Of a stretch of 64,000 bases of DNA, positions 4,948 through 10,268 are shown piece after piece. How positions within the stretch are numbered: the first letter of the stretch is position 1; each line of letters begins with the position of its first letter. The position numbers and the translations under genes were made by a program. The notes under the pieces were generated by a model. It was not told the DNA's origin and did no database searches. It worked only from the letters and a program-made list of their open reading frames with translations. Source of the DNA: Nitrospira sp. (GTDB lineage: Bacteria; Nitrospirota; Nitrospiria; Nitrospirales; Nitrospiraceae); the NCBI GenBank assembly GCA_005116955.1, contig SWDI01000001.1:152464-216463 (forward strand), written 5' to 3'.

Positions 4948-5132
4948 TTCTACCTTCGTGTAGCGGTTAGAATTTTGAAAGAGGCAGCTGCGATCGGGAC
5001 GCGACTGCGGAGAAGCTAGGGATTGGCCTTGGTTTGGTCGATTCCCTTACTAGGAACGAGAGTTGTTTTTCATGATGAGCGTCCACGCTCTTGTTCGGCC
5101 GTGACTCCAGGCCTAGAATTGGAGGCTGGCCT

Positions 5133-6710
5133 ATGCCCTCCAAATCCACAAAGAACAGTCCGAGCCGACGAGCTGTGCGTGGTCGAACCAGCACGCGCCC
5201 GCACTCCGGCAAGATCAAGCCGAAGGAAGACCTCTTCGACAAGGCTTTTCGTTTAAGTCCCCACCCGATCGGCATCACGGATCTGGACACCGGGCGCTGT
5301 CTCGATATCAACGACGCCTGCCTCCAGATCTATGGATTTCAGCGACGCGAGGTGATTGGGAAGACGACGCTGATGTTGGGGATCTGGCCTGATCCTCAAG
5401 AACGGGCCAAGTTGATCGCTCGACTTCGATCGGAAGGTTCGGTCAGGAATGCCGAAGTGTCGATGCGGATGAAGAATAAAGACCTGCGTCACTTCCTCAT
5501 CTCAACCGATCTGATCACCCTCAACGGAAAACGATGTTTGCTGACGATCGGCAGCGACATCACCGAACGCAAACAAGCCGAGGGAGCACTGCGCGAGCTC
5601 AACGAGCTGCTCGAACAGCGAGTCGCCGAACGCACGGCGGCCTTGTGCACCGTGCAGGCGAGACAACAGCTACTATTACAATCCACCCCGATGGTACTCT
5701 ATGCACGCCGAACCACCGGTGACTTCAGCACGACGTTCATCAGCGAGAACATCGTCGATCAACTCGGCTACAGCCCACATGATTTTGTGGAACATTCTGA
5801 CTTTTGGGTCACCCGTCTTCATCCCGATGATCGTGCTCAGGTGCTTGCCAATCTTTCAACCGCGCTTGAGCAGGAGCGGCATGTCTATGAATACCGATTT
5901 CGCCATCGGGACGGGAGGTATCGCTGGTTGCACGATGAGGTGCGCATCCTTCACGATCAGGCTGGCGCACCGATTGAGCTCATCGGTTTCCAGATCGACA
6001 TCAGCAGGCGCAAGCGAGCCGAGGAGGAATTGCGTCGGCATCAGACGAAACTGGAGAAGCTGACCTCGAAACTGCTCATGGCGCAAGAACTCGAACGACA
6101 ACGCATTGCGCGCGACCTGCATGACGATGTCACGCAACGTCTTGCGAGTCTGGCGGTCGATGCCGGCTCGCTCGAACGATTGTGTCAGTCGAAGCCGGAC
6201 CTGTTGCCGTACTGTCGGAGTCTTCGAGAAGCAGCCGAACGGCTTGCGGATGACGTCCACAACTTCTCCTATCGGCTCCACCCCTCCAGCCTGGAACATT
6301 TGGGCCTCGAAGCGGCAATTCAGGATCATACCCACGAGTTCGCACAGCGCACGGCGCTTGCCGTTCGGTATGTCGCGCGAAACGTGCCGAAAGCGATCCC
6401 CATCGAGATGGCTAACTGTCTCTATCGCGTGACGCAGGAATCTCTCCAAAACGTGCTGAAGCATGCCGAAGCCTCGATCGTCGTGGTGCGACTGCTTGGG
6501 ACCTCTAACGGAGTCGGGGTCTGCATCCTTGACGATGGGAAAGGATTTGAGGGGAAGGAAGCCTCCAGTCGGGGGCTGGGACTTCTCAGCATGGAGGAAC
6601 GGATTCGTTTGGCGGAGGGCACGTTCTGCATACGCACGCGGCGAGGCGATGGGACAGAAGTGCACGCATGGGTGCCGCTTCCCGATGTCCGACAGAAGGT
6701 GGCTCCATGA
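5133..6710 (+). CDS. Soluble PAS-PAS sensor histidine kinase (NarX/DegS-type HisKA_3)
   Basis: Two-component kinase of 525 residues without membrane segments, so it senses a cytoplasmic signal. Domains in order: basic disordered N-terminus (1-35); PAS 1 (about 40-150, ending TIGSDITERKQAE); short coiled coil; PAS 2 of the PAS_3 type (about 190-305, with HPDD and FRHRDGRYRWLHDE); HisKA_3 dimerisation helix with the phospho-acceptor His in RDLHDDVTQRL (about residue 330); HATPase domain with DDGKGF and RGLGLLSMEERI. ATG 5133 is chosen because GGAGG lies 7 bases upstream and the sequence before it is not conserved in character. A LuxR-type regulator follows 45 bases downstream, its likely partner. 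Confidence 0.9.
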   Translation: MPSKSTKNSPSRRAVRGRTSTRPHSGKIKPKEDLFDKAFRLSPHPIGITDLDTGRCLDINDACLQIYGFQRREVIGKTTLMLGIWPDPQERAKLIARLRSEGSVRNAEVSMRMKNKDLRHFLISTDLITLNGKRCLLTIGSDITERKQAEGALRELNELLEQRVAERTAALCTVQARQQLLLQSTPMVLYARRTTGDFSTTFISENIVDQLGYSPHDFVEHSDFWVTRLHPDDRAQVLANLSTALEQERHVYEYRFRHRDGRYRWLHDEVRILHDQAGAPIELIGFQIDISRRKRAEEELRRHQTKLEKLTSKLLMAQELERQRIARDLHDDVTQRLASLAVDAGSLERLCQSKPDLLPYCRSLREAAERLADDVHNFSYRLHPSSLEHLGLEAAIQDHTHEFAQRTALAVRYVARNVPKAIPIEMANCLYRVTQESLQNVLKHAEASIVVVRLLGTSNGVGVCILDDGKGFEGKEASSRGLGLLSMEERIRLAEGTFCIRTRRGDGTEVHAWVPLPDVRQKVAP

Positions 6711-6755: not shown

Positions 6756-7433
6756 GTGAGCACAACAATGAATGGAGTGACGCCGAGGCCGCGGGTACTC
6801 TTAGCCGACGACCACAGCTTGATGCTCGCCGGTCTGCGACGGCTTGTTGAAGAGACCTGCGAGGTCGTCGGCGCGGTAGAAGACGGCCGGGCACTGGTAG
6901 AGGCGGCTCAGCGCTTGGAGCCCGACCTGATCCTTCTGGATATCAGCATGCCGTTGCTCAACGGTATTGACGCCGCGCGTCAGATCCAGAAGCTCCATCA
7001 CTCGGCCAAGCTTATTTTTCTGACTATGCATACGAGCCCGAGCTATGTGACGGAGGCATTCCACGTCGGTGCGAGCGGCTATCTCCTGAAGCGGTCAGCC
7101 CCCATGGAGCTGCCGCTGGCGATTGAGGCCGTGCTGAAGGGGCAGCAATATTTGACGCCCTCGATCACCAAGCCGGTGCTTGCGCAGACGATGGAGCGGG
7201 AAGAGGCACCGGCGCTCAAAGGTTCCGCAGTAGCACTCACTCCGAGGCAGCGTGAAGTCTTACAGCTAATCGGCGAAGGCAAGGGGACTAAAGCGATCGC
7301 CTCACTGCTCCATGTGTCCGTGAAAACCATCGAATTTCACAAGACCTGCCTCATGAAGCAACTGAACCTGCACACGACGGCGGAATTGATGCGCTACGCC
7401 ATTACGCAGGGCCTCGCGAGTGACCAACTGTAA
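6756..7433 (+). CDS. NarL/FixJ-family response regulator
   Basis: DNA-binding response regulator of 225 residues. The receiver domain (about 12-130) has the acidic pair in VLLADDHSLM, the phosphorylated Asp in LILLDISMP (about residue 62), and Lys in GYLLKRSAP. A linker leads to a LuxR-type helix-turn-helix (about 160-220: LTPRQREVLQLIGEGKGTKA and VSVKTIEFHKTCLM). The start is GTG 6756; ATG 6768 is an alternative four codons in. It directly follows the PAS histidine kinase gene and is most simply its cognate output protein. Target genes cannot be read from the window. Confidence 0.9.
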   Translation: MSTTMNGVTPRPRVLLADDHSLMLAGLRRLVEETCEVVGAVEDGRALVEAAQRLEPDLILLDISMPLLNGIDAARQIQKLHHSAKLIFLTMHTSPSYVTEAFHVGASGYLLKRSAPMELPLAIEAVLKGQQYLTPSITKPVLAQTMEREEAPALKGSAVALTPRQREVLQLIGEGKGTKAIASLLHVSVKTIEFHKTCLMKQLNLHTTAELMRYAITQGLASDQL

Positions 7434-7750
7434 CCTCTCCCGTAGTCCTATAGACTATCGCGATAGAAGATCGTCGACATGGTTGCGTCCAGTGGCTGGA
7501 CGGATCTTGATTCCTGGACGGCGCGGGAATGTTTCCCTGCGGCCACACACACCTCGTTGAGGCTCCAAAAGAGCCGTTCGGCCATCCTCTTCTGTCCCGG
7601 TGTACACGGGAGATGAACTCTTAAGTAGCCGATAGGTTCTCTCCGACTACAGACCCGGCAAGAATCTCATCGAAAACTAGGTCACTTACTAGTTCATAAG
7701 GAGTCCTATTTGTTCTAGGGTGTCAAGTCGAAACACAAGGAGGAGACTCC
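7434..7750. other. 317-base non-coding stretch with a perfect 12-base palindrome
   Basis: No convincing gene is visible. CTATCGCGATAG at 7455-7466 is a perfect palindrome shortly after the regulator's stop codon and could be an operator or a chance site. The distal part leads into a strong ribosome-binding sequence (GGAGGAG, 7739-7745) for the following small gene. Confidence 0.4.
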
Positions 7751-7966
7751 ATGGACACGACAACACTCATTGGTCGAGTCAAGACCACCTTGGAGCAAGT
7801 GGGTACGGACTGTTCGCTGGAAGAAATGATGGACCTCTGTCCTGATTTGACTTGGAATTAGATGTTTCTCGCCATCGATGACTTGAGTAGAAGGGGAGAA
7901 ATGCAGGTGACGATGGAAGCCGACAGGACTTACAGGGTACAGGTCCGTCGTGCTGAGGCGAGCTAG
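7751..7966 (+). pseudogene. Small gene interrupted by an in-frame amber codon
   Basis: ATG 7751 follows a strong GGAGGAG ribosome-binding site. The frame runs 36 codons (ending CPDLTWN), meets TAG at 7859-7861, then continues in the same frame for 34 codons (starting MFLAIDDLSRRGEMQVTM) to TAG 7964-7966. Coding character is the same on both sides of the stop: helical, with a winged-helix-like ending (helix, then QVTMEADRTYRVQV as a beta hairpin). One change, CAG to TAG, would explain the break, giving TWNQMFLAID. Either a point-mutated pseudogene or two short peptides; TAG is a normal stop elsewhere in the window, so recoding is not supported. The intact form would be a 71-residue possible DNA-binding protein. 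Confidence 0.6.
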
Positions 7967-8044
7967 AGCCTGAGTATGCGCGTACAGGAGGAGTCCGCTC
8001 ATCTACAGGAGTTGAGATAATTCCCGGTGGGAACGGAGGTGTCC

Positions 8045-8224
8045 ATGTACATCCAGGTGCTTCAGAACACTGAGGAAGAAAGCGGCACGACCACCCCCAA
8101 CAGGGTATGCGCTCATCAGCGTCTTATTGATGATATTTTGACCAGAGGTGGAAAACGCACGGGCAAGGTTCGTTGTCTTGAATGTGGCACTGAGATCGAC
8201 GACCCATATCGCGATCAGAGATAA
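8045..8224 (+). CDS. 59-residue mini-protein with CxH and CxxC (putative zinc ribbon), copy 1
   Basis: Small cytoplasmic protein of unknown role. It shares RLIDD, GKRTG, VRCLECG and DPY with the product at 9254-9433, which is exactly the same length. The conserved CAH near residue 22 and CLEC near residue 44 could bind a zinc ion as a split ribbon. ATG 8045 is chosen because the leader ACGGAGGTGTCCATG is almost identical to the leader of copy 2, with GGAGGT five bases before the start; a GTG at 8027 is therefore unlikely. A stand-alone receiver protein gene follows 108 bases downstream, and copy 2 is likewise followed by a response regulator, which suggests a functional pairing with phosphorelay proteins. 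Confidence 0.75.
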   Translation: MYIQVLQNTEEESGTTTPNRVCAHQRLIDDILTRGGKRTGKVRCLECGTEIDDPYRDQR

Positions 8225-8332
8225 CTGCTTGTTTGAAGGAAGCGATCCTATTCCAATGTCGTATCACCTTCTTCAAGAATAGGTTGATGATTCTTCTGAG
8301 GAAAGCACCAGATGAACCAATAGGAGTGCCGT

Positions 8333-8797
8333 ATGTCGATAGGTTCAGTCTCTCATGCGCCGAGTTCCGTCGCTGACCGGACGAAGCTGAGATCTATTCG
8401 CGTGCTTCTGGTGGATGACCACTTCCTCGTCCGTCAAGGATTACGGAAGTATCTGAGCCATCATCTCGATATTGAATTGGTGGGTGAGGCCACGGATGGG
8501 GAAGAGGCGGTGAAGCTGACAGACCTGCTCAAGCCCGATGTCGTCGTGATGGACATTCACATGCCGAGAATGAACGGTATCGAAGCGACAGAATCCATCA
8601 TGCGAAAGTATCCTCACATGCCGGTCATTGGCCTCTCATTTTACATCGGAAATGGAAATCGAGAAGCGTTCTTGGATGCCGGTGCCTGCCTCTTGCTCGA
8701 AAAGGGAACGGCGCATAAACATCTGCCTCATGCGATTTATCGGGCGGTCGACAAGAACCTCGATGTCGGCTCGCCCGGTCATTGTTCCCGCGCATAG
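8333..8797 (+). CDS. Single-domain response regulator (receiver only)
   Basis: Receiver protein of 154 residues with no output domain. All phosphorylation residues are in place: DD at 28-29 (VLLVDDHFLVRQGLR), Asp 74 (VVVMDIHMP), Ser in VIGLSFY and Lys 124 (LLEKGTA). The sequence is NarL-like, and the C-terminus (VDKNLDVGSPGHCSRA) stops where the linker to a LuxR helix-turn-helix would begin. It may be a natural single-domain relay protein or a regulator that lost its DNA-binding half. TAGGAG lies 6 bases before the ATG. It follows the first CxH/CxxC mini-protein gene. Confidence 0.85.
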   Translation: MSIGSVSHAPSSVADRTKLRSIRVLLVDDHFLVRQGLRKYLSHHLDIELVGEATDGEEAVKLTDLLKPDVVVMDIHMPRMNGIEATESIMRKYPHMPVIGLSFYIGNGNREAFLDAGACLLLEKGTAHKHLPHAIYRAVDKNLDVGSPGHCSRA

Positions 8798-9253
8798 CGG
8801 AAGAGCCGCCAAAAGGGCGCGCGGACTTCTCCTCAAACTCCACACATCTATCCCCTGACCTGTTGCCTTTGTGACAGTGTGGATTTTCACTCTGTCGCCA
8901 ATTGCCCCCTGGATGCCAGGCATCGTTTGCCTCATGGCCCAGGTCAATGGCGAGTTCACATGATGAAGTCGGCTGGTAGTGGGTCAGTTGGGATTCAGTT
9001 ACGTTACCGCATGTAAAATTTGCAATTGATGTTTTATTGAGGCCGGGCTCGATGGCGAGATGTTCACTATTGACCAGTCCTTCTTTGACGAACATGCGAT
9101 CATGTTGTTCTAAAATTGCCCACTGTCGGGAGCGGGTCCTGACCGCCCCATAGCAAGCAGGGAGGCGCTGTTCAGCGGACGAGGTCGTGGGCTCTTCGAT
9201 TAGCCTCTCAGAAGCTGAAGATGATTATGAAACGACAACAGACGGAGGTGCCC
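8798..9253. other. 456-base stretch without a recognisable gene
   Basis: No frame here has convincing coding character. An imperfect hairpin (GACAGTGTG / CACTCTGTC) lies about 8873-8897. An AT-richer patch around 9000-9040 (ATGTAAAATTTGCAATTGATG) could hold a promoter for the following mini-protein/regulator pair, but no clear -35/-10 pair is visible. The part just before 9254 carries the duplicated leader with GGAGGT. Confidence 0.35.
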
Positions 9254-9433
9254 ATGGAACCTCATATTGAAAGCCAGACACTTGAGCTTCCAGGGGATAC
9301 AGCGCCGACAACGAATTGCACACACGGGCGGCTCATCGATGATGTCCTGACAAAGATGGGGAAGCGAACCGGCCAGGTTCGTTGTCTGGAATGTGGCGCG
9401 ATCTTTGCTGACCCCTATCAGGGAAATAAGTAA
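9254..9433 (+). CDS. 59-residue mini-protein with CxH and CxxC (putative zinc ribbon), copy 2
   Basis: Paralogue of the product at 8045-8224, same length, with CTHGRLIDD, GKRTG, VRCLECG and DPY aligned without gaps; the N-terminal 20 residues differ. The four candidate metal ligands (Cys and His of CxH, both Cys of CxxC) are conserved. The start is ATG 9254 because the leader ACGGAGGTGCCCATG matches copy 1; the in-frame ATG 9221 has no such site. The next gene, 25 bases downstream, encodes a LuxR-type regulator with a degenerate receiver, so this is the second mini-protein/regulator pair within 1.4 kb. No function is assigned. Confidence 0.75.
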   Translation: MEPHIESQTLELPGDTAPTTNCTHGRLIDDVLTKMGKRTGQVRCLECGAIFADPYQGNK

Positions 9434-9458
9434 TGAAGCTGGTTAGGCGAGAACCTGA

Positions 9459-10268
9459 TTGACTACGCTCCATAACATACCCAGTCGTCGGCTTGATGAA
9501 GGAGCTTTCATACGTGACACCAGCATGACGGTTGTGCCGCTTACTATAGCGGTGATCAGCCGTCAGTATCTCATATGGCTCGGATTACAGAGCATATTCG
9601 AGCGCGCAGAGACCCCCCGGATTCTGATGCACCTGCACCCACGGATGATGCCTGACGCGCTACGGGTAGAGCAGCAGCCAGACGTGTTCCTCCTCGATCT
9701 GGAGACCCAACGGGACGCTGTCGGCCTGATCAAACAGATTCGGGAGTCGGCCCCGAACAGCAAGATTGTGTTGTTGGGCGGATTCGAGGAGCAGGAAGGT
9801 ATGTGTGAAGCCTTTGCCTACGGCGTCGATGGCGTGATCCTGACGGTTCAACCGCCGGAGGTTGTGTTGGCCACAATCGAGGCCTTGTATCCTCCCGGGA
9901 AGACCCGTGGGCAGGCCGAACGCCAAGAGACGGAGTGTGGAGGAGATCGGGGAAAAAGGTCCGTGCAGAAGGTTGCTTTGGAAACACAGCTGCCTTCGTG
10001 GCCAGATGACGTGACTGTGCGCGAACACGAGGTGATCCGATTGCTCTGTCAGGGCCTCTCCAATAAAGAGATCGCCTTCCGGTTGTCGATTGCCCACAGT
10101 ACGGTGCGGCACCATCTGACGAACATTTTCGAGAAGGTCGGCGTGTCCAATCGGCAGAAGCTCCTGATCCACACGCATCAGTTCCGCGCCACCCAAGGGC
10201 GATCGCCAGTGCGAAGTCTAACTGTGCACCCAGTAATCTTTGATGACCCTTCCCGGGGCGTCAAGTGA
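9459..10268 (+). CDS. LuxR-type response regulator with degenerate receiver
   Basis: Transcription factor of 269 residues from TTG 9459; ATG 9525 (starting MTVVPLTIAVISRQYL) is an equally good start. The receiver fold is recognisable and keeps an Asp at the phosphorylation position (VFLLDLE, residue 80 of the long form), but the acidic pair is Ser-Arg (AVISRQY) and the conserved Lys position is Thr (GVILTVQPPE). Such receivers usually cannot be phosphorylated normally and respond to another signal or are constitutive. The helix-turn-helix is intact (VREHEVIRLLCQGLSNKEIA, then STVRHHLTNIFEKVGV). It follows mini-protein copy 2. Confidence 0.85.
   Translation: MTTLHNIPSRRLDEGAFIRDTSMTVVPLTIAVISRQYLIWLGLQSIFERAETPRILMHLHPRMMPDALRVEQQPDVFLLDLETQRDAVGLIKQIRESAPNSKIVLLGGFEEQEGMCEAFAYGVDGVILTVQPPEVVLATIEALYPPGKTRGQAERQETECGGDRGKRSVQKVALETQLPSWPDDVTVREHEVIRLLCQGLSNKEIAFRLSIAHSTVRHHLTNIFEKVGVSNRQKLLIHTHQFRATQGRSPVRSLTVHPVIFDDPSRGVK

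Follow-up and report, generated by a model that had tools for sequence, protein, structure and literature searches.

Two genes of equal length, each encoding a very small protein, lie close together in the stretch of Nitrospira DNA analyzed here (64,000 nucleotides in all, referred to as the window) and raise the question of what these proteins are and with which genes they work. The genes, MINI1 (8045–8224, from ATG 8045 to TAA 8224) and MINI2 (9254–9433, from ATG 9254 to TAA 9433), are both on the forward strand, and each encodes a protein of 59 residues with a predicted zinc ribbon of the CxH/CxxC type; the original prediction was confirmed on their length and position. The two proteins are 51% identical without gaps; their alignment scored 154, whereas none of 5000 shuffles scored above 56, and C22-x-H24 and C44-x-x-C47 are present in each of them. 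When the genome was searched with the pattern of the CLECG motif, the places of MINI1 and MINI2 were matched and no others. The dN/dS values against the nearest relative were 0.17 for MINI1 and 0.16 for MINI2; therefore, both are coding genes under purifying selection. Their leaders (forward strand, ACGGAGGTGTCC at 8033–8044 and ACGGAGGTGCCC at 9242–9253) have in common the ribosome-binding site ACGGAGGTG[T/C]CC-ATG, that is, the Shine-Dalgarno sequence ACGGAGGTGyCC-ATG. The leaders had been described as nearly identical, which is true of the Shine-Dalgarno part but not of the part upstream, as 14 of 23 positions agree when the ATG is included and no match was found beyond the ribosome-binding site.

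Among the genomes searched, MINI was found solely in the order Nitrospirales. Of 98 related genomes covered by a protein search, 53 gave matches; these carry one to five copies and belong to 2 of 15 genera. When 295 genomes of the phylum were searched with a profile, 58 gave matches, all from one order. Two conserved peptides of MINI were used to scan the species collection of GTDB and gave 75 loci, the titles of which were all Nitrospira, Nitrospirae, or Nitrospiraceae. A viral origin was rejected, since there was no match in viral contigs and nothing convincing in PHROGs. In the alignment of 80 relatives, in which the numbering is that of the 59-residue protein minus one, C21, H23, R25, C43, and C46 were the sole invariant columns, with G35, G39, E45, D52, and P53 being nearly invariant. 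The C, H, C, and C suspected from the window to be zinc ligands are, hence, retained by all 80 relatives, and such a set of four invariant residues of the metal-ligand type is what would be expected of a zinc-binding protein. Comparison with Pfam and NCBIfam gave no family above the cut-off, with the window proteins producing sub-threshold zinc-ribbon matches alone, and no description of the cassette was found in the open PMC literature. Membership in Zn_ribbon_4 (PF13717) and Zn_ribbon_5 (PF13719) was rejected: MINI2 scored 15.7 bits against a cut-off of 30.3 for the former and 14.1 bits against 29.3 for the latter, and these families have the ligands CxxC…CxxC, whereas MINI has an invariant CxH…CxxC. 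Ribosomal protein eS27 was also rejected as the family of MINI, the similarity being confined to about 15 residues around the CxxC (E 0.11) and not extending over the full length. The AlphaFold model of MINI is of modest confidence, with a pLDDT of 68 overall and about 80 in the core, and its three strands are arranged in the manner of a zinc ribbon. It matched no solved structure, but the model is so small that this absence proves nothing and is no evidence for a new fold.

To define the neighborhood, genes were called around 103 distinct MINI and around 326 random Nitrospira genes as controls, with the counts being lower bounds owing to contig ends and the genome-wide statistics being taken from searches and sampled stretches. 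A receiver-domain gene was present within 400 nt downstream of 10 of the 103 MINI, compared with 9 of the 326 controls. The pairing of each mini-protein with the regulator that follows it, as originally proposed, is therefore a minority arrangement and was rejected as the conserved unit. The conserved partners are upstream: a HisKA_3 kinase together with a NarL-type regulator was present within 2.5 kb upstream of 42 of the 103 MINI and 1 of the 326 controls, and an ORF for a winged-helix mini-protein (WH, described below) within 600 nt upstream of 55 of the 103 MINI and none of the 326 controls. The neighbors of MINI are, as had been expected, clearly nonrandom and have links to the phosphorelay. 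In the window, all on the forward strand, the kinase gene (5091–6710; PAS-PAS-HisKA_3-HATPase by Pfam) is followed by the gene of the NarL-type regulator (6756–7433; receiver and GerE by Pfam, with the recognition helix SVKTIEFHK), and a HisKA_3 and HATPase_c kinase beside a receiver-GerE regulator is what defines a HisKA_3/NarL two-component system. All of the 30 kinases of MINI loci that were scanned had HisKA_3 and HATPase_c, and about 27 had PAS. This comparison of neighborhoods has shown the conserved unit to be a HisKA_3 kinase, a NarL regulator, WH, and MINI, to which a CheY-like receiver is sometimes added.

A response regulator had also been assigned to the position after each mini-protein. 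For MINI1, the assignment stands, as the next gene (8333–8797, forward strand) encodes a genuine single-domain CheY-like receiver with the phospho-acceptor Asp and the Lys (Response_reg, 85 bits). The gene after MINI2 (9525–10268, forward strand, open from TTG 9459 with ATG 9525 as the likely start) encodes a protein of the LuxR/GerE type (GerE, 57 bits), the receiver of which is degenerate, scoring 19.4 bits against a cut-off of 30.2 and missing the acidic pair and the lysine. Inspection of gene orders revealed a LuxR-type protein after a few more MINI. The helix IAHSTVRHHLTNIF of the window protein is common to other LuxR proteins of MINI loci, and the recognition helix STVRHHLTNIF, or a similar one, recurs in about ten such loci (for example, L049, L103, L110, L126, L141, and L178).

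The explanation that we consider the best, and to which we give about an even chance of being correct as a whole, is that MINI and WH, induced together, act as accessory regulators of the two-component cassette, driven by the NarL regulator via a palindrome, with MINI being a Nitrospirales-specific microprotein that has a predicted zinc-ribbon core and serves as an accessory part of a cassette that has been multiplied. The idea first put forward was a different one, namely that MINI could depend on zinc and bind the response regulators directly, as their partner or anti-regulator. MINI is often near NarL and sometimes near CheY-like receivers, and binding to other proteins is common among small zinc-ribbon proteins, but many MINI have no kinase or regulator and many WH–NarL cassettes have no MINI. 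Furthermore, the distances within the cassette correlated between NarL and WH (r = 0.61) and between WH and MINI (r = 0.43), whereas those of MINI did not track NarL significantly (r = 0.19, p = 0.09), although the last point is weak because MINI gives just about 40 aligned residues. Direct binding is, hence, regarded as unlikely, and the original interpretation as a whole as supported in part.

The partner in the preferred reading of accessory co-regulators is WH, the gene of which lies at 7751–7966 on the forward strand of the window and was recognized by family search, alignment, and the model of an intact homologue (L162). The first reading of the window missed it because an in-frame TAG (7859–7861) hid the gene. 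This TAG is CAG in relatives, and both halves of WH are recognizable; it may be due to decay, to variation between strains, or to the assembly. WH is a stand-alone protein of about 70–90 residues, and it is intact in the relative L091, 73 nt before MINI. The model of the intact L162 homologue has a pLDDT of 87 and the order H-b-H-H-b-b, that is, a predicted winged-helix fold with the H1-(B1)-H2-H3-wing topology that defines the winged helix-turn-helix. Pfam gave no convincing match for WH, DUF2582 (PF10771) being rejected with a best E of 0.033 and matches in 5 of 35 members, and nothing convincing was found in NCBIfam. WH is more widespread than MINI: among 96 WH genes rated strong, 46 have MINI within the next 900 nt, and in a sample of 20 that have no MINI, about 12 nevertheless come after a kinase–NarL pair. 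About half of all MINI are without an intact WH upstream. At 100–470 nt after MINI, there is often a further, shorter paralogue of the winged-helix protein (MEVIIRSPG...LECPDLTWNQVFCELDRMSRTGQVRLT), as in L040, L096, L098, L105, and others.

A de novo motif search of the leaders of WH revealed a 20-bp palindrome, AACTAGG-A--T-CCTAGTT, in 40 of 45, with a log-likelihood of 149 compared with 37 after shuffling, and mostly at 75–130 nt ahead of the start codon of WH. The leave-one-out score was at least 10 in 32 of the 45 leaders, compared with 2.4% of random windows, and 18 of 20 held-out WH loci, which were not used in training, scored 13.8–23. A control with the reversed pattern was discarded, as bacterial DNA contains few CTAG and this sequence becomes GATC when read backwards, and controls scanned with the position weight matrix (PWM) were used instead. 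Sites scoring at least 12 within 200 nt were found for 16 of 43 kinases, 9 of 29 CheY-like receivers, and 18 of 101 MINI, all being gene classes outside the PWM training set, compared with 0 of 260 controls. The corresponding counts were 2 of 50 for NarL genes, which follow the kinase in the operon, and 33 of 75 for WH genes, with training data included. Among main-subfamily MINI with WH upstream, 43 of 53 had a site of at least 11 before WH or MINI; in the diverged MINI subfamily, operator-like sites are absent and most of the neighbors are different. The palindrome pattern also occurs five to six times per genome in the Nitrospira genomes G053 and G007, neither of which has MINI, and therefore the regulon may exceed the MINI cassettes.

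The window as a whole contains three PWM sites of at least 10: one of 12.8 before the kinase gene (5014–5033), the best one, AACTAGGTCACTTACTAGTT, of 16.7 at about 76 nt before WH (7675–7694), and a weak one of 11.5 before the single-domain receiver gene (8294–8313). The locus of the best site is itself in the PWM training set, and an exact-pattern search of its own genome was also performed. In this genome, another strong palindrome (AACTAGAGATTTCACTAGTT, L236:1501–1520) has no WH or MINI nearby, and the long ORF that comes next on that side codes for a 336-residue protein of unknown kind. MINI2 has no WH and no good palindrome site ahead by the PWM scan; it is positioned between the MINI1 cassette and an efflux operon, beside the LuxR protein with the degenerate receiver. 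It could be argued that the locus is mostly a relic, a multiplied and decaying cassette with little function here, in view of the in-frame TAG and of the dN/dS of 0.85 between the window WH and L091, a value based on few changes. The purifying selection on MINI1 and MINI2, the intact WH in relatives, and the operator-like site kept in the window argue against this, and we regard it as very improbable.

As for what binds the palindrome, the strongest and best-placed sites are those ahead of WH, and the site is also present before WH genes without an adjacent kinase, which would fit a site bound by WH itself, with WH and MINI forming a self-regulating pair and the two-component genes being mere neighbors. 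However, high-scoring sites are present beside NarL genes in the genus g11, in genomes without a WH match, and such a pair is, hence, rather doubtful. Because of these g11 sites and because the recognition helix SVKTVEFHK is common to most cassette NarL proteins, being absent from four control GerE proteins, the protein that binds the palindrome is likely to be NarL and not WH. That the palindrome is shared points to WH, together with MINI, as targets of the NarL regulator, which would be compatible with feedback on the regulator. In the co-regulator reading, the phosphorylated NarL regulator would bind the 20-bp palindrome, autoregulate its own operon, and switch on WH. MINI would be mostly read from the WH promoter, through which most of the control would run, with a minority being read from their own sites. 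Less certainly, WH through DNA binding and MINI through the contact of its zinc ribbon with a protein or a nucleic acid may work together, after their joint induction, in co-regulating transcription and adjusting the response locally. A more far-reaching version, which we put forward as speculation that probably does not hold, is that each of many paralogous two-component systems in Nitrospira is insulated by its own split co-regulator, in which WH and the zinc-ribbon microprotein, both induced by the regulator via the common palindrome, would assemble on DNA into a complex for feedback or feed-forward control.

The genes after MINI vary and include those for TreT, glycogen phosphorylase, acetate kinase, and phosphoketolase, for Hsp20, for Usp, and for AMP-binding enzymes; in the window, TolC, HlyD, and ABC efflux genes come after MINI2 and the LuxR protein. 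As noted at L102:5604–8548 and L034, some cassettes precede a Fer4/Oxidored_q6/FNR-like, NiFe-hydrogenase-like cluster, and others an operon of TreT, glycogen phosphorylase, acetate kinase, and phosphoketolase; such neighbors suggest a stress or fermentation regulon. We do not claim these output genes as a regulon, because few of the other genes in MINI loci have the palindrome ahead (11 of 373). MINI and WH could also be stress effectors, ordinary NarL targets that act, for example, on RNA polymerase, the ribosome, or the nucleoid and lie merely beside the regulator. The variable neighbors of the stress or fermentation type, the many MINI loci without a kinase or NarL, the operator-like sites before WH and, in a minority, MINI, and the weak similarity of the CxxC knuckle to eS27 are consistent with this, but for a general effector, a separate copy in every cassette would be superfluous, and the distance correlation between NarL and WH is strong (r = 0.61). 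It may thus be possible that they are effectors, but we consider this somewhat unlikely.

If MINI and WH are accessory regulators of the cassette, the known accessory components of two-component systems gain two microprotein families that had no annotation. Nitrospira are major nitrite oxidizers and include the comammox bacteria, and little was found in the literature on their signaling. A lineage-specific cassette with several copies per genome and a predicted operator could, hence, offer a direct route to regulon prediction in these hard-to-grow organisms.

Among known proteins, the Zn_ribbon_4/5 families (MJ0042-type) are similar to MINI in the CxxC knuckle in a b-hairpin, with weak matches for about half of the MINI members, but the window MINI are far below the curated cut-offs and have CxH as the first ligand pair. 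The WH model superposes on many winged-helix structures in the PDB (MarR, Fur/Zur, and Zalpha) with Z of 10–11 over 61–71 residues, whereas the sequence identity is 6–19%, and WH stands alone outside any named family. SafA, PmrD, and IraM are small connectors of two-component systems, which link two systems or block proteolysis. They are likewise very small proteins tied to two-component regulation, but no above-chance similarity was seen in Pfam, and MINI and WH, a predicted zinc ribbon and a predicted winged helix, are encoded inside the cassette. The closest regulatory logic is that of DosS/DosR of mycobacteria, in which a HisKA_3 kinase and a NarL-type regulator act with a 20-bp palindromic operator before the regulon and their own genes, the regulator binding this box and responding to hypoxia. 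The Nitrospira cassette also has a HisKA_3 kinase, a NarL-type regulator, a 20-bp inverted repeat, and neighbors of the Usp/Hsp20 type. By analogy, its predicted logic resembles that of DosR-type regulons in the general layout, to which the likeness is limited, whereas the half-site (CTAGGGA) differs, the operator is predicted from sequence, and WH and MINI are built into the Nitrospira cassette.
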